This document shows positions 6,001 to 59,050 of a stretch of DNA of 64,000 nucleotides, one piece after another. The stretch lies in contig NC_058045.1 of the NCBI RefSeq assembly GCF_020085105.1, forward strand, positions 12,161,833-12,225,832. The letters run 5' to 3'. The notes beneath the pieces were generated by a model. That model was not told the DNA's origin and did no database searches. It saw only the letters and a program-made list of their open reading frames with translations. The DNA is from Siniperca chuatsi. Taxonomy: Eukaryota; Chordata; Actinopteri; Centrarchiformes; Sinipercidae. Position 1 is the stretch's first letter. The number at the start of each line of letters is the position of its first letter. The position numbers and the translations under genes are program-made.

Positions 6001-9000
6001 TGAATGGGCTTGGGGCTGAGTGTCACAGACATGGTGGGGATGTTGGAAAGTATTTAGAGACAGACTAACACATTGCTGGTTTTGGTCTCCTCATGGGATT
6101 GTATTGTTGCTATGGTTACCTCCATTTTAATACACCTTGCACACTAACTTTGTACAGTGGTTAAAGTAGTGTGTACACCAGTACAGTGTGTTTTCATAGC
6201 CCTTCAAATAATCAAGGAAATCAATTATATTGTGTATTTAATCAATGCATTACGAATTTTAAAAGGTAACTGAAATCAAACAGTGCGTAACAGACGGCCT
6301 ATAGTCCATTTAAGACACACCATTCAAATCTAAAACATAAAGACATAAATACCACAAAAAGGCAAGATTGTTAAATGTTTGTAGTACAGGGAAGATATAC
6401 CTAACCTGTGCTTCATAGTAACGCAAACCTTTCCAATATGTGCAAAACAAGCTTAACAGAAAATTCAAAATTAATCAAAAGTACTAAATGCCATTAAAAT
6501 TATTATATTAAATCCATAATCCTTTCATTTAATGCAACCGCAAGGGGGCAGAAGTCTTATAGTCTTCTTGTGCCAGTCCCAAGTCTGGATAAATGCAGAG
6601 GGTTGTGTCAGGAAGGGCATCCGACGTAAAACACATGCCAAATTAAAAATGCGAATCGTGCAAATGACTTCCATACCAGATCGTTCGGGGCCCGGGTTAA
6701 CAACGACCGCCACCGGTGCTGTTGACCTACAGGGTACCGGTGGAAATTGGACTACTGTTGGTCAAAGACGAAGAAGGAGAGGAGGAAGGTGTGTTCGCAG
6801 GCAGTGAGAGAAGAGGAAAGCTAAGAATGTAGGACTGACAGTAGGGACTTTGAATGTTGGGACTATGACAGGGAAGGCTAGAGAGTTGATTGACATGATG
6901 CAGAGAAGGAAGGTGGACATACTGTGTGTCCAGGTGACCAACTGGAAAGGTAGCAAGGCTAGAAGCTTAGGAGCAGGGTTCAAGTTGTTCTACCATGGGT
7001 CAGATAGGAAGAGAAACGGAGTAGGAGTTATCCTGAAAGAGGAGTTTGTGAGGAATGTTCTAGAGTGTTCTAGTGAAAAGAGTATCAGACAGGTTGATGA
7101 GTCTGAAGCTGGAAATTGAAGGGGTGATGTTCAATGTTGTGAGTGGTTATGCCCCACAGGTAGGATGTGAGTTAGAAGAGAAGGAGAAACTCTGGAGTGA
7201 GTTAGATGAAGTGATGCAGAGCATCCCCAGAGGTGAGAGAGTGGTGATTGGTGCAGATTTCAATGGGCATGTAGGTGAAGGGAACAGAGGTGATGAGAAT
7301 GTGATGGGCAGGTTTGGTCTTCAGGACAGGAACGCAGAAGGACAGATGGTGGTAGACTTTGCAAAGAGGATGGAAATGGCTGTAGTGAACACTTTCTTCC
7401 AGAAGAGGCAGGAACATAGGGTGACATATAAGAGCGGAGGTAGAAGCACTCAGATGGACTACATCTTGTTTAGACGTTGTAATCTGAAAGAGACCAGTGA
7501 CTGTAAAGTAGTGGTAGGGGAGAGTGTAGCCAGACAACACAGGATGGTAGTGTGTAAAATGTCTCTGGTGGTGAGGAAGATGAAGAGGACAAAGGCAGAG
7601 CAGAGAACAAAGTGGTGGAAGTTGAAAAAGGAAGAATGTCGTGTAGTTTTCAGGGAGGAGCTGAGACAGACTCTGGGTGGTCAGGAAGTGCTCCCAGATG
7701 ACTGAACCACTACAGCTACTGTGATCAGGGAGACAGGTAGGAGGGTACTCGGTGTGTCATCTGGAAAGAGGAAAGTGGACAAGGAGACTTGGTGGTGGAA
7801 CGAGGAAGTGCAGGAGTGTATACAGAGAAAGAGGTTAGCTAAGAAGAAGTGGGACACTGAGAGGGCTGAAGAGAGTAGACAGGAGTACAGGGAGACGCAG
7901 CGTAAGGTGAAGGTAGAGGTGGCAAAGGCCAAACAAAGAGCATATGAGGACTTGTATGCTAGGTTGGACACTAAAGAGGGAGAGGTGGATTTGTACAGGT
8001 TGGCCAGACAAAGAGATAGAGATGCGAAGGATGTGCAGCAGGTTAGGGTGATTAAAGATAAGGATGGAAATGTATTGACAGGTGCCAGGAGTGTGATGGG
8101 AAGATGGAAGGAGTACTTTGAAGAGTTGATGAATGAGGAAAATAAAAGGGAACGAAGAGTAGAAGAAGTGACTGGTGTGGAGCAGGAAGTAGCAAAGATT
8201 AGCAAGAGTGAAGTGAGGAGGACGTTGAAGAGGATGAAGAGTGGAAAGGCAGTTGGTCCTGATGACATAAATGTGGAGGTATGGAAGTGTCTAGGAGAGG
8301 TGGCAGTGGAGTTTCTGACTAGTTTGTTTAACAAGATCTTGGAGAGTGAGAGGATGCCCGAGGAATGGAGGAGAAGTGTACTGGTGCCAATTTTTGGATG
8401 ACATTGTGATTTGTAGTGAGAGCAGGGAGCAGGTGGAGGAAAATCTAGAGATGGAGGTCTGCTCTGGAAAACAGAGGAATGAAGCTTAGCCGCAGTAAGA
8501 CAGAATACATGTGCGTCAATGAGAGGGACCCAGGTGGAATGGTGAGGTTACAGGGAGCAGAGGTGAAGAAGGTGCAGGACTTTAAGTACTTAGGGTCAAC
8601 GGTTCAGAGCAATGGAGACTGTGGAAAAGAGGTGAAGAGGCGAGTGCAAGCAGGTTGGAACGGGTGGAGAAAAGTGTCAGGTGTGTTGTGTGATAAAAGA
8701 GTATCAGCAAGAATGAAAGGAAAGGTGTTCAAGACGGTGGTGAGACCAGCGATGTTGTACAGCTTAGAGACAGTGGCACTGAAGAAAAGACAAGAGGCAG
8801 AGCTGGAGGTAGCAGAGCTTAAGATGTTGAGGTTCTCTTTGGGAGTGACGAGGACGGACAGGATCAGGAACGAGGACATCAGAGGGACAGCTCATGTTAG
8901 ATGTTTCGGAGATAAAGTCAGAGAGGCCAGATTGAGGTGGTTTGGACATGTTCAGAGGAGACACAGTGAATATATTGGTAGAAGGATGCTGAGGTTGGAG

Positions 9001-12000
9001 CTGCCAGGCAGGAGGTCTAGAGGAAGACCAAAGAGGAGATTTATGGATGTAGTGAGAGAGGACATGAAGTTAATTGGTGTGAGTGAAGAGGATGGAGAGG
9101 ACAGGGTTAGATGGAGGCACATGATTCGCTGTGGCGACCCCTGAAAGAGAACAGCCGAAAGGAAAACAAGAATCCTTTCATTTCAATGAAAAATAGCAAT
9201 ACTCAGCAGTACCACAAGAGAGCGTATTGCAATATGCTGTTTCAATTATTTGTCCCATCCCTGGTGTGTGGTTTTGAGCCGGGGGTTGAAGCCACAATAC
9301 TTCAAGTTTATGGAAGAGGTCTACTGGCACTGACTGTGACAAGAAACAGCTAGAGGCAGGAGCTCTAAACCGGCTTTATGCCCAGCATGCATCATGGTTG
9401 ACCTACACATTGAATATGCATCAGTGAACTTAACTGTAACCTCGGGTGAAGCAGATACTGTGAACCAAATTTAATGCTGCGAGAAGTAATTCAACACATC
9501 GTTTACCTATGGGACATTAAGATGCCCTGTGATGAACCATGACATCAACATCTCTCTGCATCACCATCTCACAGAGAAGCATTCTCTCACATAACAGTTT
9601 GGTGAAACGGCTTATGCATTAATGCATAGACCGAATCTGCTTAACACCCTACAAGCAATAACATCTACAACTCAATTTTGCTAGGCAATGACAAAAATAC
9701 ACAGTGTACCCAATAGTCTATTTGATATAATTTGGCTTTGTAATCTTAAAATCACTAAACATTCTGACTTCTGGCAATCTGATTACAAAACAACACAGAA
9801 GCTAATACCTAGAGGCTTATCATTCTGGATCTTCCACTCACTGTGTTTCCTCTCCCAGCAAAACAGCCTGTACCACAGTACTGTTCATAAATGATTTAAT
9901 CTAATGTTGACTAATCCAGAGAAAATGTGGGTATTTTGGTCAGACAACTATAATATGTGGTTTAAGACTTAAAATACATTGTTACCTTAAACCAACACAA
10001 AAATTGAGAGCCAGTTCTCCTCTTAATAGCAAATGAGTCATGGAACAAACCGTTCTCTCTTTTCCTGGCTGCCTCTCACTAGCAACACTATTCAGACAAG
10101 AAGGCTACAGCAAAATTATTCCTCTACCAGAAGAGGGACACAGTCTGTCTTGTCCAAGGCTTTGAGGTAATTCAAAGCAAGTGATAATTAGGCCAAGGTT
10201 TATGTAAAAATAAAATGTAACAATATTTTCAGACTATCCTTTAAAGCTAGTGGAATAATGTGAACATGGCTCATTAGGGGTTACACATGCAGAAACAGCA
10301 TGCGTGTATTGGTCTGATACTATTTAATGTCCCTAAGGGAGATACCCAGCTGACCTACTTTTGGTGAGCAAAATTCTTAACATGTCGACTGGCCTGGGTT
10401 TTATTCGGCCAAGTAGAAAGAGACTACAAAGAGATAAAAGAACATCAATCAACACAGCTATAATGAGCAAGAACTAGTGAGGTGGGTCAGCGTCAATGCA
10501 CCCTCTCCCATCTACAAATTGTAAATATTTACTCTGTGTTTCCTGGGCTTGGCAACCACTGGATGACAGATGTTGTGAGAATACCTTACCTACTCACAAC
10601 TCAAGGCTAACTGTGTGCAGCAGCCTGAGGCAAAAAAGGCTTACAGCAACATTCCCTTGATCCACTTAATCAGCTGCAAACAAGCTGTCTCCTGGGCTGC
10701 ACTGTAGAATAAGATACATTGTGGAGCATAATTCTGGTTATATTCTCTAGCCAGGCAATCCTTCCCCATGCACTGTGCAGAGTAAGAGGCAAGTGTAAGG
10801 TTTCCCTTTTGGCAAGGTCTACAAACAGGTGCAAGCAGCAAGACAGTGGGTGAGATCTAGCTCATTAGGAGAGACACAGAGAAAATCAAAAGATTAGAGG
10901 ATACATACAGAATAGAAGTACAGTCTGTAAGCAGGTTCCTCGGCCTTATCCACCCCTGACATACTTTTGCAGCCCACTTCAGACAACCTGTTCCCCCTCA
11001 CCAGCACTGCCACTTGTGCAAGGTGACATCGTCATCTGACAACAGGACCAAAATAGACTCCTACTGTGTAGTCCACACTGCTATAGCAACTTGCCCAGTG
11101 CCAACTCCTCTCCCAGTGGCGATTGAGAGAGACAAGTGCTCAGTAGTCCACCAGTCCTGCCTTTCACTTTGACTACTCTGTCTGTAACTCTGTCTGTAAT
11201 CTAGCCTGAGCCCTCAGTGCTCTGCTGAGTTAGCAGCCACTTCTTAGGCCCGACTCGCTGCCTGCTGCTGTCTATCTGTCTGCCACTCTCCTCTGCTCTG
11301 CTCTCCACTGCATGCACCTTCCTATATTTACAGCTTCTCTGCTTTCCCTGCTCTGCATCAGAGCCCCCACTCTCTCTGTTTCTCATCTCTCACTCTCCTT
11401 CTGCCACAACACTGCGCGGTCATGTGTACACAGCAGGCCTGCAGCTCTGCCTCCCATCCTGTGTTGCCAGTGATGAGAGTGTAGCTGCAGGCTCAGAGAC
11501 AGTATGTGCTAACGCAAGCCTGGCCATGCATTAACCACACAGGGTGATGCTCTGGATCTGATTTGACTCAGCATTCAATGATTCATAGGCTGCTGGGGGA
11601 ACAAAACACACAAGCCCACATGGTTTACTGCCTACGAATGAAACAAACTTACAAAGTCTGCAAGAAGAAGTTGAGACAAACAGGGAGAGCATTTGTCACA
11701 TTCTTGTTTTTATGACGATATGACATATATATATATATATATATATTCTCACAAGGCCAATTATCGTCCTTTGGTAACAATGCACCAGTGGGTGTGTTTA
11801 ACAAGGGTATTGATGGAGAGGGAAACATTTCAGCAACTTATGAGACCACCAGAGCTGACACCATCACACCTAAAGAAGGTACTGTCATCCAAAAATGCTC
11901 CTTTCCTGCTGGAACTGTTGGCTAAGTGAACCCATTCTAAATTATCCAGTCACTTAGCTCAAGCTAGCTAACAGTGCATCGGAATTCTACTGTTCTTGAC

Positions 12001-41559: not shown

Positions 41560-42360
41560 TATGATCATTCAGTGTGAGAAGTGTTAATATTTTGATCTGA
41601 CATTTAAAGTCTGAAGATTCAGTGTGGATTGAATCAGAGGACTTATGAGTTTGTATTCATCTCTGGCACATCTATCAAGGTTTAACTGTTCAAGTTATTA
41701 CAAATAATAGGATGGACACAATTAGTAAACAAGAAATGCATGCAGGTCATTTGATCAGATTACAAAGTGTATTAAAAGATAACCTGGTCAATTCAAGTAG
41801 TCCAGCGTTCTAATCTAGCTTTCCTGGTTAATCCTCTTATATCAGGAGAATGGACAGTGCAAGAAAAGAGGTACTAAAATACAAAATGGGTCTGACCATT
41901 TTATGATGATCAGCTCAAGGTATCCAAATTCTTCGTTTGAAAAATAGTTACAAAAAGCATTCTGATGATTTCTCCTAAACTGTATTGACACAACATTATA
42001 TGCCATGTGAATGATTTCATCAACACTAAAATAAGCGGTTGTTTTGTAGTTTAATTTTAAAATGTTGGGAAATTTCTCTAAAACACAAATAAGGGTCTAT
42101 TCTGCAACTCAGATTAGAAAACAAATATTTGGGGCATATTTCACTTTTACAAACAATGTTTTTGTCATCCTTCCTTCCATGATTTAAAATGTTTAAATAA
42201 ACAGATTCTAAAGCTTATCAATTTGTTTTATCTAATGCATGTGCTTGAATGGTTTTGGTTAATCTTCTTGTGAAGGTCTGTTTGTCAACATTGAGCTGCT
42301 GGGTGTCTGTGTGTGTGTGCTGGTCTGTTCTGATCGAGAGAAAAGCCTCTCTTCGTTGAA
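41560..42360. other. Intergenic between the CCCH/CHY gene and the CH25H-like gene
   Basis: AT-rich sequence with no gene or recognisable repeat. Confidence 0.5.
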
Positions 42361-42366
42361 CTCCGC

Positions 42367-42374
42367 TATATAAA
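42367..42374 (+). promoter_or_regulatory. TATA box of the CH25H-like gene
   Basis: TATATAAA followed by GG lies about 62 bp upstream of the ATG at 42436. It predicts a transcription start near 42400 and a very short 5' UTR, and fits an inducible, single-exon gene. No convincing interferon-response element is visible in the nearest 100 bp. Confidence 0.65.
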
Positions 42375-42435
42375 GGCAGAACTTTCTCATGATCCTGAGA
42401 CTTGCAGCAGCAGCCTTCAGTGTTACCACAGCGAG

Positions 42436-43269
42436 ATGTTGAACATCAGTGAGCGGTCTCTGCAGCTCATGCCCTCCAGGGCCTCGGACCATCTGCTGCA
42501 GCCATTCTGGGATTATTTGCTTTTTCACCACCTGCCTCTCATCTCATCTCCTTTTTTCCCCATCCTACTCGCCTTCTCCAGCTATTTCTTCTTCAGTATA
42601 CCTTTTGCTGCACTAGACCTCTTGGGAGAAAGAGTGCCTTTAGTCTATCAGTACAAGATCCAACCAGACAAGCAGCCAACAGTGAGAATGATGGTTAAGA
42701 GCTTCACGACAGTGCTGTATAACCACACATTCTTTGTTCTGCCAACTGTAATAATTGGCATGTTCATACTGCCTACACCAACACTGCCACAGGATGCTCC
42801 TACTCTATATGAGGTATTCATTGATGGACTGGCTGTACTTCTCCTCTTTGACACTCAGTACTATATTTGGCATTTCATACATCACAAGCATCCACAGCTC
42901 TACCGGTGGATCCATGCAATCCACCATGAATACATGGCACCTTTCTCTTGGTTGACAGAGCAGGTCAGCATTCCTGAGCTGATTACTGTTGGACTCTGGA
43001 GCAACCAGGACCCAATTCTTTTAAAGTGCCACCCATTGACCACATGGTGCGTCACAGTTTTCAGTATCTGGATGTCTGTGGAGGACCACACAGGCTATGA
43101 CCTGCCGTGGACCCTCAACCACCTGGTGCCTTTTGGTCTGCTGGGTGGTGCACCGGCTCATGACATGCACCACCAGAAGCCGAGCAGTAACTACGCTCCT
43201 TTCTTCAGCCACTGGGACAGAATCTTTGGCACTGCCGTTCCTCTGAAGAAAAAAACTATGAGAACATAA
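42436..43269 (+). CDS. ch25hl: Cholesterol 25-hydroxylase-like protein (fatty acid hydroxylase superfamily)
   Basis: A single-exon frame of 277 residues, close to CH25H (272 in human). CH25H enzymes are ER di-iron membrane proteins that convert cholesterol to 25-hydroxycholesterol, an antiviral and SREBP-regulating oxysterol. The His clusters that ligand iron are present: WHFIHHKHPQLYRWIHAIHH (residues about 144-163, covering HxxHH and the second HxxHH) and HDMHHQ (about 242). Hydrophobic segments occur near residues 35-60, 92-108 and 126-142. Family phrases include CHPLTTW, SVEDHTGYDLPW, HLVPFGLLGG and HWDRIFGT. It has its own TATA box and poly(A) signal. A dead relative lies 8 kb to the left on the other strand. 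Teleosts have several ch25h-like paralogues, so the exact paralogue is not certain. Confidence 0.9.
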   Translation: MLNISERSLQLMPSRASDHLLQPFWDYLLFHHLPLISSPFFPILLAFSSYFFFSIPFAALDLLGERVPLVYQYKIQPDKQPTVRMMVKSFTTVLYNHTFFVLPTVIIGMFILPTPTLPQDAPTLYEVFIDGLAVLLLFDTQYYIWHFIHHKHPQLYRWIHAIHHEYMAPFSWLTEQVSIPELITVGLWSNQDPILLKCHPLTTWCVTVFSIWMSVEDHTGYDLPWTLNHLVPFGLLGGAPAHDMHHQKPSSNYAPFFSHWDRIFGTAVPLKKKTMRT

Positions 43270-43485
43270 GTGAATAAAAAAACAAGTGAATGCTAAATGT
43301 TTTTTAGCACTATCACATTGTTTCCCTTTGTGAAATTCATAATTTATCTTGTCTTTAATTACTATTAATTTTATACCACTTGCCGCCTCCTTGATGCTCC
43401 TCTTTTTTTCTGAGAGGCTGCTTTCTCAATGGACTGACCTTGTGAAATACAATTATAAAATGTGTTGAAAAGTGTATTTTCATTC

Positions 43486-43491
43486 AATAAA
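43486..43491 (+). terminator. Polyadenylation signal of the CH25H-like gene
   Basis: AATAAA about 220 bp after the stop codon on the coding strand. Confidence 0.65.
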
Positions 43492-43499
43492 ATCATGTT

Positions 43500-44108
43500 T
43501 ACATATTCTCCCACTATTGTTTCTATTGGTGTTATATGGAATAAGTCAGAAATGTTGACATATTCAATACATTTTTCTCAATACATTGTGTACATAATCA
43601 CACTTTATTCAAGTCATTCCAGTGAAGTAATCAACAGTAATTAGTTATATTTGCAAGCAAAGCAAGTACAAATTCCTGTAAACAACTTCCTGTTCTTGCT
43701 TTTCTCACAATCTTCTTACATAATACAAAATCTTTGAAGGCGCTTTAGTCAGCAATATTTTGCTTACAAATTCCACGAAGAAACAGGGAGCTTTTGAACA
43801 AGAAAGCTAAGTACTGTTTGTTTTTCTTGTCACCAAGAGGTCAAGTACAACGCAAGGGGAATTAATGTTAACTTGTACTTGAGAAAGTGCTGAGCTTTGA
43901 CTGGAAAGTGTTCCAGACTGACTTTGTTTGTATATAATATGTAAGTATTACATATGTCAGGTGACTTAAATATTTACTTTGATACTAATTTCTTCTCATT
44001 AAAAAATGCAGTGCTTTTTGGTATTTCAGCTCATAAATGTTTGTAATCGAATTGGATCATTTCAAAATGGCCAATAACACACAAACATGCAACAAATATT
44101 TAAATATA
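43500..44108. other. Intergenic between convergent CH25H-like gene and kti12
   Basis: AT-rich; no gene or repeat recognised. Confidence 0.5.
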
Positions 44109-44114
44109 TTTATT
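44109..44114 (-). terminator. Polyadenylation signal of kti12
   Basis: TTTATT in the plus text, AATAAA on the kti12 strand, about 40 bp beyond the TGA stop. The 3' UTR would be very short. Confidence 0.55.
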
Positions 44115-44152
44115 TGTCACAGAAAAAAAAAAGAAATAAATGCTATAAAATT

Positions 44153-47100
44153 TCAGTGAAGACTCTTATTTAAATATTGCACAAACATGTTGGAAATGTG
44201 TCCAGTGTTCTCTGTTGGGTGCATCTTGGTGTAGCTGATGAACTGGCGCCGTAATTTTCTCAGCTCTGCCATGTTGATGCTTCTGGTGAGCTCAATGTTA
44301 AACATCAGGTTAAGGTCATTTGAGTACAAGTCTTTCTGTGCGCAAGCTGTTCTCACATGAAAAGAGAAAAAGTTTTCTACAGTACAGCTGAACACTGAGG
44401 AGGCGATAACTAACAGACCAAAGGTATGTGAAGGTCACAGTACCACATCTGAACCTTTAAGGAGAGCAACACAATGAAACAACACAAAGTACTGAATGTT
44501 TGACGTAATCTCAAATTTAAATAATGCAACTGTCATTAAAGGTTGACCAGCGCGTCAGTTTCTGCTTGGGCCAACATGTTCAAAGAGGAAAATCAAAGTG
44601 TTTGCTTCTGAGAATGTCGGACAGTGCAGCTGCCAATAAAAATCTACTAATCTATGCAATTTGGTTTCTCTCCTCCATACGTATCCCACAGTATGTTATT
44701 ACAGGCAAGACCTTTAACAGTGATTGGTTGCTGTGCCTTGCATTTAAGTTCTTTGATGGACATGCATTCATCCACCTTCCCCTTCTAACAAGTCATTTGA
44801 TATGGAGTACTTTGCCTCCTGCTGCTATGACTTTCCTTAGGAGATAGATGATGAAAATGAGTCATCACAACAGAGGTAATACAAATAACAGACAGACATT
44901 AGCTGTGAAAGATTACTGCCACCCGGACACCTTGTGACATCACATATGAAAACAGAACTATTAAAATCTGTTTAATGTGAAATGATTCTTCAAAACTGTG
45001 TTTTAAATAAAACATGAGGACATAGGATATGTAAAAAGGATATCTTTTCTGTAGCTCCTGGAACTGAAATGAGATCCCCAGGAACACTTGTCTTCTGTGC
45101 GTTAAAAATTGCCTGAAACATTTCAATTACTTTTATCAAAACACATTACATACAGAGGGTAATGTTTTTACTGAAAAATGCAGCTCCCCTGGTGCTTTGG
45201 TTTGTAGGGAGCTCAAGATCATTATTCAATGAGAATTAAATGGACCGATGACTCAAGATTAGAAAAGTACTTGTTCTTCTAATTATTCATTGCATTTACA
45301 GGGAATTTGTTTTAAAAAATGACAAGTGCAAAAATGAAAACATTACTGTCCATACAGACTTCAGAATGGAAGAAAATGCAATGTAGAACATACTATTTCA
45401 GGCACATCAATAGGTAGATATATAATTACAGGAAGCAACCATGAGGTCACCCGTTTACAGAGGGAGGACAAACTGGTGATTGTAATGCATTTGACCCAAA
45501 AACTTCTTACCAAGTGAAGCAGAAATCAAAACAATTACATTCTTCACTTGGCTGAGATATAAAGCACCGGAACATGTTGTCTACTGATCATACTGACAAA
45601 AAGATACCTAACACAATTATGACGCTCCTGTACGCGCCAACACATTAAGAGATTCTGACGTCAATGCTGACGTCATGTTTGGACAACATGACTGGTTTCT
45701 TGCCATTCCTCCTATCTGTCTTATAATAGAAATGCATTAAGCATTGGGAAAAAGCATCAATATATGCATCACATGTCGCAATAATAGAGCCTCATGGTAG
45801 TTCAGGCAGACATGGAAGTCACGTTCCACACACCCTCCAATCATGTATACAAGTAGACAAGAGTACATCTTGACATTCTGCAGTATTGATAAGAATCTTC
45901 CCAGCGGCAGGGCAGTGAATTTGGAACAAAGATTACCACATTTTTTAATTACATTTTTATATCGTATTTTTGGAAACACCTTAGCTCCTGTACTGTAATT
46001 ATTTGCCTACCTACTGACTATATTTGATGCTTTTTGTCTGCTAATTGCTATTCGCCAATAAGTTGCCACTGACTCTGTTCTCTTGATGTGCTATTGATGC
46101 CATGTTCACATCATTTGGGATGGATGGTAGACATTTGAAAGATTCCCATGTTTACAACCTGCAAGGGTTCACGTCATCAGATAACTCAAGATGGTTGAAT
46201 GATGGAATGATGAGTTGACTGCATCAGGGTTAAAAAATACTTGACAATATATCACTATATTTGGGTTTAATTACTGTGAACGGCGGACTTTGACTGGCGT
46301 GAGATGTCCATGTTCATTTGGTTTTCAGGCATTTCCGTATTATCATTATTAAAAGTGCCAAGCCAGATATAGCGACGTTTCCAGAGGTGTCTGAGCTTGC
46401 CAGTCATAAATACGTCTTGGACATTGACGTGAACACTATTTACAAGTTGGAAACTGGTAATTACGACAACTCTGATATAACATGAACATGGCATTAGTAC
46501 ACCTGCTAGTGGGCTATAAACACCTGCATTATCTTACTATGCACTGAAGAAAGTCTACGACTTGGCTTGAACTTCAATTTACAAATCACCTGTTCAACAG
46601 TGCAAACATTTCAATCCCAACTATTTTTCTGAATATGTCTCCTCAGTCCATTATTTTTACTTTTCAATGTGCAGGTCTCACTTTGGTGATCTTGAAATAT
46701 GACATAACTCCAAAGACAGACTGCTTCCAGCAAAATATCCCAGGAAGAAATCTGACTGACTGGCAAATGAACAGAAAATCCAAAAGAACATAAGATGACA
46801 TACCATTAACACATCTTGTGTGATCTTGTCCAACTCATACAAGAAGTTTGCAGATGACAATGGCTGCTGCAGAGAAAAAGAATATCTCTATTAACATTAG
46901 AGAGTCAAAAAGGCAGCATGACAGCACATACATCTACTGAATATTGTATGCGTGTAACATGTAGCATGTATGTCACTTACACTCTGTGTAGACTGGTTAG
47001 GTGGGGGTGCTTTTCTTTTGAAAAGTGCGTCAGAAATGGCTTCATATGGAAGTGTATCGTCTTTCAGGATGGTGAAGAGAGGACTGTCCCATCGGTTTCT

Positions 47101-49045
47101 GGAGTCTGGAGCTTCAAATCTAAGCACTAACGCATCAAGGCTACAAAAAATTACAAAAACAAAATTGGACGGAGGTCATTTTTGACAATAAAAAGGCATA
47201 AAAGGTATTTTTAAAGCCTATCCAAAAGGTAAAGACACCCCTTCCAGAGACTGACATGCACTTTTACTGTATGTATAGAGGCTTCTTACTCACATGTCCT
47301 GGGTGTACTGCTCAGCAGCATCTCTGTTGGTATTCCACGTTGAGCTCACTTCATCTGACGTCAGACAGTATACCTTCATCAAAAGAAAGCATGCAATTTT
47401 GACTTGTGAGATTAATATTTGGATAATAGTTTTTAGATATTAAAACTCCATTAGTTATTTCACTAGTATACTTACAAGGCAGTGTGGTGTCTGTGCGTGT
47501 TTGATGAGACAGAACAGTTCATAGCGGTAGCCTGTAGGGTATTTCAACTTTAAAAGGTGAAAGCATAAACAAATTATGTCTGCATAGCATACTATTGTTA
47601 GCAAGATTTACCTTTTATGTAATTTAATGAATCCAGAATTACAATGTCATCCTTGTTGACTTTCCTAAACAACAAATATATAAAAGGTTAAAAGGGCTGA
47701 GATGGTAGAACACTGATGAATCTAATCCAAAAACAGATCTGAAAAACCCACCTCTCTACTTCAGCTTTCAGAGATGCTCTGACATTTTTTTCCTTTTGGG
47801 AATCTGCAACATATCCAACAAGGTTAAATTACAGGAGTAAGCAAAATACTACCTTACTTACTTTCTAGTAATCCAGTCTTCTTTGTGACTGTCTATTTGT
47901 GGCAGTGATCTCAAACCACAGAAGTGGGTTTTTGTTTTTGCAACTAACAAATATTTCCATTTCCAATTAATCTGCTAATTATTTTCTTGATTAACTGTTT
48001 GATTTATAAAATTTAAGAAAATTGTGAAAAATGGCCTTCACAATTTCCCAGACCCAAGTTGACATATTGCTATTTTGCTTGACTGTCTAAAAAACTGTCC
48101 AAATACTGAAGATACTGAAAATTTCCTATCAGAGCGGACAAAGAAAAGCAGCCAATTTTGACATCTGAGGTTGGAACCTGTGTATTTCTTTTGCTTATTA
48201 AATTATCAAAATTGTTGGTGATAAATTCTTTTCTATCAATTAATTGATTATTCGACTAGTTTTAAGCTTTAATTGCTGAAAAGCTTAAAAACGTTTTAGC
48301 TGCTGATATCTGGAACTTCTTGGCGAGAAAATGATCTTGTAAACCAAATGTAATAATATCTAAGTGGTTTAAGTTATAGTAGTATTACCGGTATGTAAAA
48401 GAAGCGAAAACTATAGATTCTTCTGTAAAGAGAATATCGACTTACGTATGGAAAAGGCTACGGTTTGACAGGAAAACCTTTATCATACGACAGTGATGAC
48501 ACTCGCACGCCAAACTCCATTCAAAATACCATTAAATTAAGTTAATGCTGCCCAAACCCTCTATAAACACACATACTCCGTAGAACACGAATTAAATACT
48601 CCTATCAGATTTCAGCATACAGTATTTTCAGACACCTAACAACGCTACAGAAACAGGTCTATTTTAATAACAGGTTATCTTTTTTTAGCGAACTGGTTCC
48701 CCTCTTATTCATCACGTTTCTTCCCCAGTTAAGCTTCAGTTCACCGCGAAGGCGCTCATCCAGTAGATAATTGCGGTTTGATGGATAGCCAATAGGTTGA
48801 GGACTTTCCAACAGGACTCTGAATATTCACACAATATTAACAGATACAAACACGTAACAAATAACTGAATGGCGACATAGCTAGTTTAACTTGCCTGCGT
48901 AAACAGTGTTTTTCTCAACGCCCAGTGCTCCGTCTCCCACAATATGAACCTTTCGGTCAGTTTTCTGTTCAAAACACACCTTCAGTTCTTCTGCCCTTCG
49001 TGTTTTACCACTACAGGGGTAACCACACATCACTATCAGAGGCAT
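44153..49045 (-). CDS. kti12: KTI12 homologue, P-loop Elongator-associated protein
   Basis: Nine exons on the minus strand (48895-49045, 47752-47803, 47612-47664, 47476-47531, 47294-47373, 46981-47140, 46804-46866, 45044-45112, 44153-44296) join in phase to 275 residues. The start MPLIVMCGYPCSGKTRRAEEL holds the Walker A loop GYPCSGKT. Later parts match human KTI12: DDIVILDSLNYIKGYRYELF (Walker B-like), LRFEAPDSRNRWDSPLF, APPPNQSTQS, TSVPGDLISVPGAT, and MAELRKLRRQFISYTKMHP. The last residues are NMFVQYLNKSLH. KTI12 proteins bind ATP and tRNA and support Elongator in wobble-uridine modification. Two introns have unusual ends: intron 1 is GC-AG and intron 8 is AT-AC. The protein lacks the long central insertion of human KTI12 (354 residues). 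A fish-type repeat lies in intron 1. Confidence 0.94.
47930..48280. repeat. Diverged teleost interspersed repeat in kti12 intron 1
   Basis: Phrases such as AAAAATGGCCTTCACAATTTCCCAGA, TTGACATCTGAGG and the end ATCAATTAATTGATTATTCGACTAG recall a common fish repeat that ends in a short AATCGATTAATCG-like tail. It is non-coding, and the borders are approximate. Confidence 0.5.
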
Positions 49046-49271
49046 AACTCCCGTGTTATCAAATAAACTAGCCTAAAATTTGATAAAAAGCATGTTGCCA
49101 CTTTCACCCGGATATGGTTACTACAACCATTTTTACGACGATCAACAGGGGGCGCCACAAAGCTAACAATTTACTGATTTGGCCTTTCTTCCATATCAAT
49201 TAGTAATATTTTAACTATTATGTGAAAATACTTTAAAAAGGGCTGACAACTGATCTGGCTTTCAGTACTGG

Positions 49272-49277
49272 TTTATT
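49272..49277 (-). terminator. Candidate polyadenylation signal of nmb
   Basis: TTTATT in the plus text reads AATAAA on the nmb strand, about 225 bp past the proposed stop codon and about 230 bp before the kti12 start. Confidence 0.5.
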
Positions 49278-49499
49278 AACAGGTGGCACTACAGAAATAT
49301 TACGTTCAAATAACAGGACCCCAAAACAAAGCAGTGCAGATTGACATCATATACAATGTAACATCACATTAAAAAACAACAACATAAACATTTAAATTAG
49401 AGCTAATTTTTCACAAGAATATTTTATAAGCCTCCTCTCCATCAGTAGTATTTCATATTGTTACAGTAATGGTGTAACAACTGTTGGTTGAAATGTTCC

Positions 49500-50051
49500 T
49501 CAAGCAGGATCACCGCCTCCTCTAAATGGATGGAAAAAATAATCAGTTGTACAGTTAATATAATAATACAACTAATATTACTACTAATAATACACTTACA
49601 TGTCCAATGCCTGTTTCCGTTGTGTTTGTTGGCTAGTTTTCAACATCTGAATGAGCAGTGCCTGCAGGTCTTCCACGCGGTACAGAGGACTAACAGCTCT
49701 GACTTCAGTGGGAACATTTACATCTTCACAGGCAGACTCCATAAAGGAACTGTCCACAACACTTTTCTTTCCCATGAAATGCCCTTAATAAATACAAAAT
49801 ACAACAATATAACCTGTCAAAATATATATATATTTTAAATAGCACAAGAATATGAAATCATTTGCCAGAATAGTGTTATTTCTCTCACCTGTTGCCCACA
49901 GATTCCCCCTTGGATTCACCTTGATCTTTGAAACTTTATTTCTCAGCTCAGTTAAATCAAGAGTCATTGAAGATGTCATGGCAATGTATGAGATAAGGAT
50001 GAAAGAAGACAGGAATCCTGCTCTGCAGATTTTTGTCAAAGTGCCTTTCAT
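49500..50051 (-). CDS. nmb: Neuromedin B precursor
   Basis: Three coding exons on the minus strand: 49889-50051, 49600-49783 and 49500-49521. The first encodes a signal peptide (MKGTLTKICRAGFLSSFILISYIA) and LDLTELRNKVSKIKVNPRG, then the start of the peptide. The second completes GNLWATGHFM, the same ten residues as mammalian neuromedin B, followed by GKK (amidation donor and dibasic cleavage). This gives an amidated, bombesin-like neuropeptide acting on the NMB receptor. The intron falls inside the hormone, between ATG and HFM. The C-terminal extension (AVSPLYRVEDLQALLIQML) is amphipathic, as in other NMB precursors. The last exon is short (IGGGDPA) and is the least secure part. In human, NMB also lies near ZNF592. 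Confidence 0.9.
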
Positions 50052-50360
50052 TCCGCAAAGGTGTTCTATGCACTTTGGTGCCGGTTAATTAAAATCTCTG
50101 CTCTTCTGTTACTTTGGGGACAGGCAGTTATACTGAGATAGGATGGGCTTAATATTCTTATGGTATGAAGTCATCCGTCTGTGGTTGGTTTCTTATTGGA
50201 TGAATGATGCACATTAGAGTGCCTTGTGCCATTCTGACTTGCTATGACGATTACATGACCTTAATAATCACATCCAAATACCATTAACTATTTCCTCCCC
50301 CGCATCCAGTACTTTAACACGAGACAAAAGACAAAGCAGATATATGTTTATATGCACCAA

Positions 50361-50366
50361 TTTATT
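50361..50366 (-). terminator. Candidate polyadenylation signal of znf592
   Basis: TTTATT in the plus text is AATAAA on the znf592 strand, about 1.73 kb beyond the stop codon. The interval 50370-52099 has no other gene, so a long 3' UTR is the simplest reading. It would end only about 310 bp before the nmb start codon. Confidence 0.45.
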
Positions 50367-52099
50367 TGTAAGTACTTTACGTGAACATTACAGCAAGGCA
50401 CACGGGCCACTGCATGCTGAATAGATGTAATGGCTTAAGAAATGCTGTGAATCCAGGGTTCACTGGCTACTGTATGTACACAGGTTACTTTCCTTTACAA
50501 GTCCTCACTGTACACAGTATGAAAAGTACAAATATCTTTCAATGAGCAGTACAAAAGAACAAGTCATTCTTTTCAGCCTCTGCAGTTTAATGGCTGCAGC
50601 GTGGTGATTTAAGGACTTAACATAACAGAGAAATAAAGAGCTCATATAGCACTTACATAGAAAAGTTCACTTGCCAAATCAAGTCAATATGACCACATAG
50701 CCTTAATTTCATTCCCAAAATAATTTATAAAATTTAATATTGTGGAATAATACACATTCTATAACTAATCTTTACATTGCACTGAGATTACCTGCGACAC
50801 CTCAAAGCCTTTCGTCGTTTAACAATCACTGCCATTAACCATGGAGGTAGGAACTGTCATGTATTCAATACAAAACAATAAGTGCTGCTTCACAAATCAG
50901 GACCTGCGAACAAGAAGCACCCACCATTATGAGCACTGATCTAAGAAATGTCTGTCCTCTGAAGTCCTCATGGATTTAACAAATTCCTCAGATCCTACTA
51001 GTATTATTATTATGAGCAACTTCATGTTAAGAGGTCCTGACTTACAAAACATTATCTCCGATATGCAGCCAAACTTCACTTTCACACCTGCTCTGGATTA
51101 TCCAAAACAATGTACCCTGATTTGACATAACGCTGACTGTTCACTTGCCTGAAAAATACACTTCTGGCAATTTGAGGTATTTTCATTACTGCTGCACCAC
51201 ACATCTAATACCTCTCCATGCTTCCCCTGAACACTCAAAGAAAAAAGAAAGACAAATCTTTTCTTTTTTTTTTTTTTAAAAGGCACATGCACCCACAAAT
51301 CAAACACGTTCAATAAACAAAAACAAAAGCATTTCAGAGTGCTTAGATAGTCAAAAGAAAGTCTTGTTCTTAAGTGTAGCCTAACTTTAATAGACGTTAC
51401 TTAGCAAGACAACTCGCCTGAATTTGATCTCACAGGATAGTTTTTCAGATAACTGTTTACCAAGAACGCAGAAATACGGCTTTTAAATGAATATTGAATT
51501 ATACTATGTTTTGTAAAAAATGCTCAATCAAATTCTAGCTTTGTACTGCAAATTAATTGCAACACAGCCATGTCATACAAACTGCAACCTGAATCCCATT
51601 CAGGTAAAAGTGTGTGGCATTAAATACTTCACACAAAATCCTAGCAATTAAATTTACAGTTGATTACAAAGGTGAAAATCCACCCCTTCACTGTTACATC
51701 AATCAAATCAGACCTAAGAACTAACAGAAATTCCTGAGTCTCCTGTCAGGGTGGATGGAACATTTGAAAAAAAAAATAATAATAAAGACATAGAAAGAAT
51801 GCAGTTATGTCTGAAAGGCAAGACGAATATACTACCAACATGCAAAGTTAAATAAAAACAATTGAAAAATGGATATTAATTTGTCCTCACTAATGGAAAA
51901 TACTGCTCTTTACTAAATGTTGAGGATCTGCTTGAATATACTGCGCAATCTCTGAATAACTTGAAAGAAATTTCAAAATTACAAAGGCCTAAACACTTTG
52001 TACCACCTCCATGCAGAACATCGAACATCCCTTGTTACTTTCACATGAAAACTGAAGATAATCAAGCAGCTTTAAAAAGAGGTATTGAGGTGGCTGTCA

Positions 52100-55000
52100 C
52101 TACCGTAGAGAGACTGCTTGTGTCTGAGAGTGAGTGCTCAGTTTTAAATTACAGTCGGTGGTCTTGTCACTCTGCTCCAGTAACAAGTCATTCACCTCAT
52201 CAGTATCTGCTGATCTAACTGGCTGATTATCCTGCTCCTTCTCCCTAACCTCTGCCTCCTCCTCCTCCTCCTCCTCCTCTTCTTCTTCTTCTTCTTCTTT
52301 CCCCTCTTCCTCAGGATCTTTGACTTTGTGTACAATGAAAAGATGTCTGTTGAGAGACAGCACAGATGTGAAACACAGGCCACAGCGAAGGCACTGAGGA
52401 GTGTTTTCATCAGTTTTATGCTGTGGTATGTGCTGCTGGAAATGTGTACTGCTGTCTGTAATGAAACCACACTTTGAACAGCGAAACTGAGTTTTCTGGC
52501 GCTTCGCTGAAGGAGCCTCGAGACTGAAAGTGCAATCCCGCCCCCTCTCCTGTGTGTCCACGGCAGGTCTTTCTGATACAAGCCCCTGCAAAACACAGAA
52601 GTTACACACTTTAAAATGATGACTAGTAAGGTTCATAACATTTGCATTGGTGCCTGAAGTTATTATTTTGTGGTTTGTGTTAAAAAATAATAAATAACTA
52701 CCTTGCCCAAAGCCTTTTTTGATTCCTGGATGGCTGTTTTCGGCATTTGGCCGAGATCAGGATTTTTGATTCCATGCATTAGACTGATGTGATTCTTCAA
52801 CATCACACTCGTTGTGAATATTGTCTTGGAATCCATGCAATACCTCAAGTGTAAAAATAAAAAATAAAAAAAAGGAATGGAAGTGGAATTAAATTATTTC
52901 CTGGTTAATTTGATAAAACACTCAACTGTGACAACTTTGACTTGTTAATTTTCAAACATAAAAATCTTACCAACAAGTGTAAATTTTCTTTTTTCCATCA
53001 TGGTCATTGCGAATATGTCTTCTCAAAATGGTTGTAGAGTTGAAAGACTGCTCACAATGTCTACATGGATACTTTTTCACTGACTGTTGAAAAAAAAGTA
53101 TGGCGATATGAGCTTGACAAATAGCAGTAAAGGTATCTTCCAACTTTTATTGTACTTGTTAACTTGAGTTATGAGGTAATCATGAACGTCTAATGAGTTC
53201 ATTATCTATACACAAGTAACCATTAAGAAATTATTATAAATGTGCCACACTCATCTACAAAAGGGTAGTTTTAATCTGTATTACTAGGTCACCTAAAAAC
53301 CAAATAAAAATCTAGATGACCAAATTGAAACAGTCATGCTACATGACATCATGTCATGTAGCTGACAGTTAGCAACAGGGCAACACTTTAGCAAAACCCG
53401 TTTGGCTATAAACTGAAATTCACACCAGAATCAAGACATAAGCAGTTTCAATTATTTTTCTTCTGCTGACGTAACTGATACGCTTCTATTTTATTCAATA
53501 CATGTGTAACAGTTCGGGTTCCACTCACGCTGTAATATATACGCTATAAAGTGTATTTTTAAGCTAGTGTACTCTATTATAAGTGAGCCAAGATGTTAAT
53601 CTCTATAAACAGATATCTGCATATGAATGCAGAATCTGTAGGCAAGGGACAGGATTTTGGTATCAGCATTCTGGTTTCCGTTTGTAGTGAGTGAGTGTTG
53701 GTTGCATGCAGGTAAACAGTCCGTGTGGAGAGCAAAAGAGGCGGAACGCATTGGCCCAAATGTATTCTTGGAACCCATCGACTATCGTCTGGCGACGATT
53801 TAGCTTTTTATCAATCTCGGAACCCTAGAGATTAGATTTTTATTTTTTATTCATCTGCATTCAAATTGTCGTCAGACGATAGCTGATGGGTTCCGAGATT
53901 GCTAATCGGACTGTAAACAATGACCGGCGCACGGAAGAGGAAGTCTTGGCCTGGATATCCATTATCCGGATATCTGCTGGCTACACTGGAAACCACGAAA
54001 TATTGGTTGTTGCCCCCAGAGGCTAAATCGTCATCAGACGATCATAGCCAATGGGTTCCGAGATGCCAAGATATTAACTAAAAAACAAATGCATATCATG
54101 TCATTCGTGTTTTGGTTGAACACATACATATTCCAGCATGAGGAATTCATAATCACCTTTCCGTGTTTGGTCTTCACATGAGAAACATAGGAGTCTCGTT
54201 CAGGGAACCATTGGAGACAAACCCCACATGTCCAGCCGGTGGGCTTCATGCGGGGTCCGCTGTCCTGCTCAGCCTTTTTTCTGGGACTGTCTGTGTGTTT
54301 AACTGGGCTGTGACTCTTCTGTTGCTGGACGGAATGAGCACCCTTGTACCAGTCAGTATTGTCTGTTTGTTTACTGCTCCTCTCTGTCTCTGCTGTCATG
54401 TTTCCTACATGAACATCCTGCAAAACAGGAAATACATGGCAAAAATCACAAGAGGTGACAAATATCAGACCTATCCTCTCCTCCACGTTAATGATGATGT
54501 CCAATATTCATCATTTATTAGACAATATTTGACTACTTATTTGCCAGTGCCATTTAAAAGAGTCTGCATCATGTGCATGATTTGTAGATTAAACAATGTG
54601 ACAAAAGCCAACATAACACAGCAACAGCTAAGCTTTGCTGGCAAATTTAATAATGCTCCCAAAAATCTCAGGTTAAATTTCACTTTTTGCAGTTTTAACA
54701 TGCAATTTTCATGGGAATAATGGAAATCAGTAGCCAGTTGCTATTTGCTGTCAAGTTTCAAGTATCAAATAGGTAACCAAGTACGTGGATAAACATAAAC
54801 TCTAAACACACAATGAAATCCAACCCACAAATACATGCCAAATAGATCCCTTGCAGGTAGCTTATTTTAAACTGACAAATATACACAGAATCTATTAATA
54901 ATTCATTTATTTAAAAAATACAATCAGAGCTAACCTTGAAGTGCTGCATTAACAGCTGCTTTTGTGAAAAGACCGAGTTGCATTCTGGACACTTGAATAC

Positions 55001-58000
55001 ACACGTAACACGCTTGTTGGCATTCTGATGGAAATGCTGAAACAGTAACTGCTTCTTCTTGAAAACTGTCTCACATGAACACTTACATATTAATCTGCAT
55101 AAGAAAGAGAAAACAGTTCAAATTAACTGTAAAAACAAATGTACAACTTTCAACTGTCAGGTCATGAGATGTTAACTTACTGAGGGGATATTTTGTTAGC
55201 ACTATGTTTATTTTTTAAATGCACTTCACAGCTGCCGGAGGTCTTGAAGGCAACTGGACAGATGGAGCACTTGTAAAAGACTTCACAGTGTTTCTCCTCA
55301 ATGTGAGTCTTTTGTCCTTGAAGGGTCTTGAAAACCATATCACAGTGAAGACATCTGGAAGAAAATTAAACATAATGCCACTTTTCTGTAACAATGTACT
55401 GTATGTTTTCAATAAGGCCTGCGTTTCATGCTTGCTCACTTACTTGTACCAAGCCTTGCGAGCATAGTGCAGACAGTTTTCTTTGACATGCTTCTGTATG
55501 TCTGCAGAACGACTCAGGGCACCGCACTCAGGACAGCAGTACGGGGACTTGTGTGCATGAATGCGTTCATGAGCTCTAAAGCTGCACTTGTTGGGTAACA
55601 ACATTGAGCACACCTTACACATCTGTTTTATAAAGGAAAAGGAGAGAAAAGTCGAAAAAGATAAACGTGAAACATGGAAAATACATAAATATTGGTCACA
55701 GTGCCGTTAAAGGATCAGTCTGGTGATATTCTATATTTTTCTTTTATTGTCAACAAATCCCACATACTCCATCCTGCTGCCGTAAATACCCACAAGAGCA
55801 CTTAATGTGTATTAATCCTCGGCTGAAAATAGTCCCCAAAAATACACTTTATAGGCTACTCCTGTTTGAGTAATTTTTGCTAAAAAACACAAAGCCCAGC
55901 TGTTTTAAGAAAAGACTGAACCTTTTTAAAAAATGAATCTATATATTTATGACCCATTTTTAAAGATTTATATCTTCAGTATGAACAAATGGGCTTGGGG
56001 CTGAGTGTGACAGACAGGTAGATCTTTTCATTGGATTTGTTGACAGTAACAAAAATATACAATATCAGTCAGCTATATCCTTTAATATTTCAAGAAAACA
56101 TCTACTCACTAGTCCTTCCACATCTTCTGACTGCCTCTGGTAATGGCCTGCAAGTGCTTTGTAGTCAGGTAACTGCTTGTTACACTCCAGGCAACGGAGT
56201 CGGTGACGAATGACATTGTCTGGATATAGGGGCAGGACAGGTTGGTTTTTAGGTGAGGGTGAGGTGTAAGAGTCCATGTTTACAGATTCAGTACTCAGGG
56301 GTACAAACATTTGTTCCATTGCTATGGGTTTCATATGGAGCTGTGTGCACTGCATCACCATGCCATTGTTCTTGTGTTCTCGCGCATGTGCCAACAAGGC
56401 ACACTTGTTGAAGAACACCATTGTCTTTGCGCAGTGCGTACATCCTACTTCAATGTGAACACTCCTCCTGCTGTAATGATACACAAGACTCCTCTCCACC
56501 CCAAAGGAGTCCCCACACTCGAGGCAGCAATATCCGCGCAGTGGAAGGTTGATATTGCTCTCTGGAGGGGGGTTCAGGTTTGGCACATATGTAGGCACAG
56601 GGTTGGCATTGTTCAACAGTCTGTTTAAGGTTCCCGCTGCTGTGTTGGGGATGGACGTGCAAGGATAAGGTTTAGCTGTTTTGACCTGATGCACCAGTGG
56701 GACAGTGCTGTACACTGTAGAGGAGAGTGTGTGTTGGCTTTGTTGATGAGAGGTGGATCGTGCAGCTACTGAAGCGGCAACACTGTGAGGGACCAGGTTC
56801 AGACTAGCTAAGTGCATTGCTTTGGGAAGGAAGTTTGTGCTAGTTGTATGGCCTAATGTGGCTGATCCTCTCTTTGGTTTCTGTCCCTGATGTGCAACAG
56901 ATCGTTTGACAGGACCACTAGTATTATGGAATATTGTTGCAGACTGCGTTGTGCCTGACCTCCTGGAGTTAGCCTCTGATCTGTTGTGTATAACTTTCCG
57001 TGAAGATGTACTAGCTGGGGTAACTTTAGTTTGCATTCCAACAATCCTATCAACAGCTGCAATTTGAGACTGATGAGGAGACATATTACAGTAAGAATCT
57101 TCACTAATCATACTCTGTGATGGAGAGGATTCATATGCAGAATGAACTTCATCTGTTTCTGAATCCGGCAGCACACTAGTGACTGTGCGCTTGATCTGCC
57201 CAGATGTGGTTTTGATGGTCTTAATTCTGACCCTGGGTATAGCAGGGGGTGACCCAGATGCCACTGCAGGGGATGCTTTGCCACTGCTATCACTGCAGAT
57301 GCTTACGGGGCTATCAGAGGGTTTCATTAACCGTTTCACAGCTTCAATTGGACTTCTGGGGCTTCGTGGGGATATAGGTACGTTGGGGCTTGTTTTCATG
57401 CAGTCATTTTGAACCGCTGATGACTCTCTGGGATTTGTCTGCTCTCTGGGATCTTTTCTAGCATTCAGAGCCACAAGAGCCTCAAGGTAAGAGGATAATT
57501 CAGATGTCTGATATTTGACATGTGGACAAGAAGTGGGAACATTCACTGTGGTTTCTGAATTGCAGTTGGTCTCAATAAAGTTCTGGATACTGCCTGGTGG
57601 GGGAAGTGCACTGTGTATTTTAGGTGTTTTATCCATTTCGTTACCGACACAGACGTCAGCGGGCTCCTCGCTTCTACTACTGTCTTCTCTTCTCCTCTGA
57701 GTGTTCTTGGGAATAAAAGAGTCCTTTGCACAGTCATCAAACATACTGAGATCCAGTTTTTTTGAAATGTCTGGGATTGAAGGTTCCACCAAAACTGAAG
57801 CTTCTGGGAAACAGGGTCTCTCTTGTTTTGGATACATTTCATCTCTACTACATTGAGCGTCTTCAGACTCAGGACTGGAGATGGGACTAAAATGAGAAAG
57901 TGACTGGGAAAATATTGGTGTTCCATCAGGTTTGTGCTGAACAGGTGCTTTTCCAAGAAGCTCTCTTGAACTCTCCCCATTCAAAGCAGAGACAAATGAT

Positions 58001-58326
58001 TTGGAAAAGCCAGTATTAGTTGTCTCAACAGAGTCAATGGAGGTCTCTTGTCCCCTAAATCCATTTTGTAATACTGGTCCAAAACCTTCCAACGACTCCT
58101 GGCGACTTGTGTTTTTCACAATAACACTTACAGCAGGAATATCTGCTGTTGTGACAGCTTGGTTACTCAATAAGCTGTCATCCAGACATATCCCTGTGTG
58201 TTTCAGCTGACTCTCTGTCTCCTCGTGACTCCCCTGGATGGGCTCTTTTGCATCCAACCCTGTGGCATCTGGGATGTCAAAGGCAGCCAGAAGATCATCA
58301 AAATCTGGGGTTTTCATGTCACCCAT
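52100..58326 (-). CDS. znf592: Zinc finger protein 592
   Basis: Eight coding exons on the minus strand (56110-58326, 55444-55622, 55181-55354, 54935-55094, 54157-54417, 52971-53083, 52702-52843, 52100-52585) join in phase to about 1243 residues (human 1267). The start [20 protein letters not shown] matches human ZNF592. The long first exon is a disordered Ser/Pro-rich region with conserved islands ([55 protein letters not shown]), then the first fingers ([10 protein letters not shown]). Later exons carry further C2H2 fingers, for example [42 protein letters not shown] and [10 protein letters not shown]. The last exon has a run of 16 or so acidic residues after [14 protein letters not shown], as in human. 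Mammalian ZNF592 is a nuclear factor of the ZNF592/687/ZMYND8 group. A 5' UTR intron probably ends 20 bp before the ATG. Confidence 0.95.
53769..54065. repeat. Cluster of inverted and direct copies of a hairpin-forming module
   Basis: A module of about 40 bp occurs inverted at 53769-53804 (GGAACCCATCGACTATCGTC then TGGCGACGATTTAGC), and twice direct at 53863-53900 and 54022-54065 (…GTCAGACGAT…GATGGGTTCCGAGATT / …ATCAGACGAT…AATGGGTTCCGAGATG). A 13-bp inverted part (AATCTCGGAACCC) also occurs at 53812-53824. Each full copy holds its own small stem (TCGTC-loop-GACGA). The outer copies may be terminal inverted repeats of a MITE of about 300 bp, with an internal remnant. It lies in the znf592 intron between 53083 and 54157. 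Confidence 0.75.
55711..56030. repeat. Interspersed repeat, copy B of the family at 5.74-6.09 kb
   Basis: It lies in znf592 intron 1. It shares GGCTGAAAATAGTCC, a CTACTCCTGT..GAGTAA..TTTGCTAAAAA block and AATGGGCTTGGGGCTGAGTG with copy A, in the same order. Borders are approximate. Confidence 0.6.
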
Positions 58327-59050
58327 GGCTGCACAGGCTCATAAACCTACAGAAACAGATACAGAGTTAGCTTAATATGTTATTTTTCAATTTACACAGT
58401 GGGCACTGCAGGCAGAGCTCATGGAACAGTTGTTGGCATAAGACAGTTATTTTACAATGACTGTTTAGCAGCTGAGTGACGTCCTCTGTAAACGTAGCTA
58501 GCTAGCTAGCTAGCAAGCTAAACGTTAACCAGGTCTGCTGGTCTTCGTCTATGCAGCTACTATTTTGTACCAAGGCATGTATTAACACACATGTAAACAT
58601 TTAATACAGACTACTATGCTCCTAGCGTGATCAAATATCAACTCCTCCATATGCCGACCTACATGAAAGTTGTTTTGCTGTTAGCGTAGCTAGCATAACA
58701 TAGATACCTGCTAACAAGACACAGTCAGCTAGCCGAGTAGTTAGCTACATAACGGACCCAAGATAGCAAGTTAGCAATCTAGCTTAGCAACATGCTATCG
58801 CGCATATCATTTATCAGTGCATAAGCGCGCTTACCATTTGATCTGGTTATGTTTAACAGATCTAGTAAATTAGCAATACAGTCAGTTAACTGTTGGCGCT
58901 AAGTGTGTACCAGCTAGGTTTAGCTGTTGCAGGGGTTCATAGCTAGGCTACAAGCTACGAGCATTAACGTTGTTTCGTGTCTCTGGGTAATTCAAGCCCT
59001 CGGCTCTGTCTTACAGACGAGAGGCGGTGCCACGCACCACTTGAACGTTA
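58327..59050 (-). promoter_or_regulatory. 5' UTR intron and probable promoter of znf592
   Basis: On the znf592 strand, TTTCTGTAG at about 58340-58348 would be the acceptor of the start-codon exon. Upstream sequence to about 59050 is comparatively rich in CG and in GCTA words (perfect (GCTA)5 at 58495-58514), and so probably contains the non-coding first exon and promoter. No TATA box is evident. Confidence 0.4.

Follow-up and report, generated by a model that had tools for sequence, protein, structure and literature searches.

Across positions 42334-58338 of the window (the whole 64,000-nt stretch of Siniperca chuatsi DNA that was analyzed), a fatty acid hydroxylase gene resembling ch25h lies on the plus strand and is followed by kti12, nmb and znf592 on the minus strand. 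The neighbors were called by Pfam for znf592 (PF25412) and the hydroxylase, and by eye for nmb. Elsewhere in the window (6808-9141, plus strand), open frames resembling a LINE-type endonuclease and reverse transcriptase were noted by eye. For kti12, the following features were taken from the gene model, with the coding gene also supported by Pfam and by its NCBI match.

44153..49045, minus strand: kti12 coding gene, 9 exons, 275 aa
49045-48895, minus strand: kti12 exon 1
47803-47752, minus strand: kti12 exon 2
47664-47612, minus strand: kti12 exon 3
47531-47476, minus strand: kti12 exon 4
47373-47294, minus strand: kti12 exon 5
47140-46981, minus strand: kti12 exon 6
46866-46804, minus strand: kti12 exon 7
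45112..45044, minus strand: kti12 exon 8
44296..44153, minus strand: kti12 exon 9, including the stop codon

The 275-aa product scored 337.7 bits against the KTI12 family profile (PF08433) in a Pfam search, covering profile positions 1-271 of 271, and was matched to NCBI S. chuatsi KTI12 isoform X1 (P0001) with 100% identity over 100% of its length. A whole-genome Pfam search for KTI12 gave matches at the kti12 locus only, in three pieces. PDB matches were set aside as evidence on the exon 8/9 junction: the best chain (6qp0, 'Putative chromatin binding protein') aligned in three pieces, none spanning the junction, and two L-seryl-tRNA(Sec) kinases covered residues 3-212 and so had no bearing on it. 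Intron 1 (47804-48894, minus strand) has GC-AG ends (CAG/GCAAGT); with intron 8, described below, kti12 therefore has two introns with non-GT-AG ends.

The splice signals of intron 8 are listed here.

44297..45043, minus strand: kti12 intron 8, U12-type AT-AC, 747 nt, phase 0 (direct reading, gene model, donor footprint in 31 genera)
45034..45043, minus strand: U12-type donor ATATCCTTTT (direct reading; single copy of the 10-mer in the window)
44309..44315, minus strand: CCTTAAC, the core of the branch site; its branch A (44310) lies 13 nt from the intron end (sole CCTTRAC in the window, both strands)
44297..44298, minus strand: AC acceptor dinucleotide, without a polypyrimidine tract upstream (direct reading)

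Read directly on the minus strand, exon 8 ends ...CAGGAGCTACAGAAAAG and the intron opens ATATCCTTTTTACATATCC; it closes CAAATGACCTTAACCTGATGTTTAAC, and exon 9 starts ATTGAGCTCACC. The U12-type donor motif ATATCCTT is supplied at the exon end by ATATCCTTTT at 45043, and the last intron bases, CTGATGTTTAAC, carry the AC end with no polypyrimidine tract. U12 branch sites are close to TTCCTTAAC, at a distance of roughly 10-20 nt from the 3' end of the intron. The site in intron 8, GACCTTAAC, agreed with that consensus at 7 of 9 positions and was counted as a branch site. The junction can slide by 1 or 2 nt with an identical mRNA, giving TA-CA or AT-AT ends, and AT-AC ends are obtained only in the unshifted position. 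The initial annotation had placed the intron at 45043-44297 between exons 8 and 9, with a branch distance of 13 nt, all of which agreed exactly with the gene model and the direct reading.

Motif counts in the window were compared with shuffles. ATATCCTTTT is present in 1 copy (shuffle mean 0.25), and as at least one copy occurred in 21 of 100 shuffles, rarity in the window was given little weight alone. The 8-mer ATATCCTT has one further copy, on the plus strand at 56075. For CCTTRAC, 1 copy was counted on both strands, against 15.66 on average in shuffles (sd 4.22). The deficit is milder when set against the 6.3 copies of a fifth-order expectation, but among 577 comparable A/G word pairs a count equally low was found only once, a post hoc comparison. 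The chance of finding donor and branch motif together at one fixed exon junction was about 3e-8 (first-order estimate; motifs picked post hoc). What is improbable is the placement of the motifs at the junction, not their number in the window.

Other splice pairs were searched with donors up to 700 nt past exon 8, and with acceptors in an interval that runs from 700 nt upstream of the start of exon 9 to 110 nt downstream of it. The initial annotation denied that any GT-AG alternative preserves the frame; this was refuted, as 35 in-frame GT-AG pairs were found; with 12 GC-AG pairs, they make 47 stop-free in-frame pairs. Of these, 40 were examined, and every one adds, removes or changes residues at the junction. 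The existence of these pairs speaks for a rival reading, in which the major spliceosome removes the intron at nearby GT-AG or GC-AG sites and the AT-AC ends are a coincidence. On the KTI12 profile, however, the five complete alternatives that were scored reached 319.1-327.9 bits, 9.8-18.6 bits under the AT-AC product (337.7 bits; intron 8 retention, 290.3 bits), and the alternative donors look weak by eye (e.g. GGA/GCTACA, TCA/GTTCCA, CAT/GTTTTA).

Relatives were collected in three protein searches (1683, 160 and 229 matches), the best 120 of each giving 180 distinct proteins. The first query was the spliced protein, without ISF; the queries of the second and third contained ISF and so favor models that read through into the intron. 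By sequence pattern, 135 of the 180 listed proteins have the junction as in S. chuatsi, 42 continue into the intron, and 3 (P0060, P0061, P0064) show other shifts. Two of the latter, P0061 and P0064, are models without ATEKIE, corresponding to the product of the -12/+6 GC-AG pair in S. chuatsi, and several other database models take sites within the intron; both observations favor the use of major-spliceosome sites. Against it, among the matches listed, the AT-AC junction was found in 15/15 homologues from short contigs ('lgn', 902-1171 nt), 2 of which are partial proteins of 194-195 aa. These contigs were taken to be RNA assemblies because their length is far under the ~4.9 kb genomic span of kti12.

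The 42 listed read-through models come from 36 species in 31 genera, sturgeon to percomorphs, and include Acipenser, Amia, Megalops, Albula, carp, a catfish, salmonids and many percomorphs. Past exon 8 they begin Ile-Ser-Phe (40) or Ile-Ser-Leu (2: Nibea, Acipenser), the translation of ATATCCTTN, and the residues beyond diverge. With one model per genus, entropy was 0, 0 and 0.35 bits at codons 1, 2 and 3, and 3.05-3.57 bits at codons 4-8. With the spliced-protein query, 7 of the best 120 matches were read-through models, and 7/7 begin ISF. Donor conservation in other fish, a check suggested in the initial annotation, was in this way found at the protein level in 42/42 listed read-through models, which, given codon degeneracy, are consistent with ATATCCTTN and do not prove the DNA. 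The intron 8 donor looks conserved across ray-finned fish, judging from these models, and a sequence that is constant at the donor and varies further into the intron is the pattern expected of a U12-type splice site. Splicing by the major spliceosome leaves this footprint without a reason, and we regard that reading as very improbable. The elephant shark protein (P0178) has the canonical junction, which is compatible with the presence or the absence of the intron. The same comparison indicates that fish gene catalogues often mis-model the exon 8/9 junction (42 of the 180 listed models, in a set partly enriched for such models).

In two species, isoforms of equal length swap IELTR-like residues for ISFFx at the junction, a possible twintron. 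These are the NCBI pairs of Centroberyx gerrardi (P0055; X2 canonical, X1 ISFFM, both 275 aa) and Hippocampus zosterae (P0085; X1 canonical, X2 ISFFR, both 275 aa). In such an arrangement, the U12 AT-AC intron would predominate, and some fish would also make genuine use of GT-AG sites of the U2 type that overlap it; shifted twintrons with products of similar size are on record (PMC3564746). The paired isoforms are protein models only and may be annotation artefacts, however, the residues of the alternative form vary between species, and the nearest GT-AG pair in the window (-21/+6) removes 9 residues. A twintron was considered unlikely, and the plain AT-AC intron is the reading followed here.

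Genes for the minor-spliceosome RNAs U12 (131.1 bits), U6atac (131.2 bits) and U11 (115.9 bits) were found in the S. chuatsi genome; an Rfam scan of the 64,000-nt window gave 0 matches. The U12 gene has GTAAGG, the U6atac gene has AAGGAGAG, and close to the 5' end of U11 lies AAAAAGGGC, which can pair with the donor CCTTTTT (by eye). Energies of pairing to the U12 and U6atac of S. chuatsi itself were dropped as support, as they discriminate poorly: 121 of 3000 random 12-mers matched the intron 8 donor in pairing to U6atac, 356 of 3000 random 40-mers matched the intron 8 tail in pairing to U12, and the intron 1 tail paired with U12 better than that of intron 8 (-9.4 vs. -7.2).

The donor, the branch site, the AC end, the lack of a pyrimidine tract, the fit to the protein family, the relatives and the snRNA genes all support the U12-type AT-AC call of the initial annotation. 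On sequence evidence, kti12 intron 8 is confirmed as a real U12-type AT-AC intron, a further member of a well-known intron class. It is almost certainly an old intron, conserved in fish kti12 and removed by the minor spliceosome, and we infer that this spliceosome acts on it in S. chuatsi. The donor ATATCCTTTT would be paired first by U11 and then by U6atac, CCTTAAC would be paired by U12 with the branch A bulged out, and exons 8 and 9 would be joined in phase 0 to give ...GATEK/IELTR.... With intron 8 retained, the protein is predicted to stop 17 residues into the intron and to lose C-terminal residues 229-275. Kti12 has a role in Elongator-dependent tRNA wobble modification; the supply of Kti12, and hence this modification, would then depend on the minor spliceosome.

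The human KTI12 gene is presumably a single-exon retrogene in an intron of TXNDC12, with a protein that we take to be orthologous to fish Kti12, and in contrast to fish kti12 it should lack the U12-type intron. In human, NMB and ZNF592 presumably adjoin on chromosome 15. A review describes KTI12 as a retrogene located within a TXNDC12 intron, in a passage that mentions mouse and human work nearby and does not give the species (PMC5408686). The order kti12-nmb-znf592 in the window fits a history in which the parental gene was lost after retroposition, and mammals may have been freed from the minor intron by that loss. In models from Nibea and Albula (P0124, P0156), KTI12 is accompanied by a bombesin domain (PF02044), which agrees with nmb adjoining kti12 there.

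A broader proposal is that the old AT-AC intron ties the Elongator cofactor Kti12 of ray-finned fish, and with it the modification of tRNA wobble uridines, to the capacity of the minor spliceosome, and that mammals escaped when the parental gene near NMB and ZNF592 gave way to an intronless retrocopy. We put it forward tentatively, as possible and on balance doubtful. If it is true, fish and mammalian disease models of the minor spliceosome differ in tRNA-modification defects, a testable contrast in the consequences of defective minor splicing. Should the human gene be the published retrogene, kti12 is a conserved minor-intron gene probably missed by human-based lists. Its conserved footprint and the contrast with the retrogene lift kti12 intron 8 above routine annotation.

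A literature search, with supplementary lists outside its scope, returned no paper joining kti12 with a U12-type intron, a zebrafish minor intron or the minor spliceosome, and kti12 may already be present in some computed intron list. The available sections of the main text of a zebrafish U12-type intron study do not name kti12 (PMC9501576). The same sections count 662 U12-type introns in 612 zebrafish genes, 218 of them retained in zrsr2 mutants (PMC9501576), and a published table gives the AT-AC share of U12-type introns as 22% in zebrafish and 26% in human (PMC7367187, Table 2). The SMYD2 U12-type AT-AC intron described in that source has donor ATATCCTTTA and an AC end (PMC7367187). It resembles kti12 intron 8 in a donor that is the same over nine bases (ATATCCTTT), in the AC end and in a CCTT[AG]AC branch core. 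The two differ in phase (phase 1 in SMYD2, phase 0 in kti12), in host gene, and in the bases before CCTTAAC, which are GA, not TT, in kti12 intron 8. The zebrafish U12-type introns are of the same class as kti12 intron 8 and likewise belong to a ray-finned fish.
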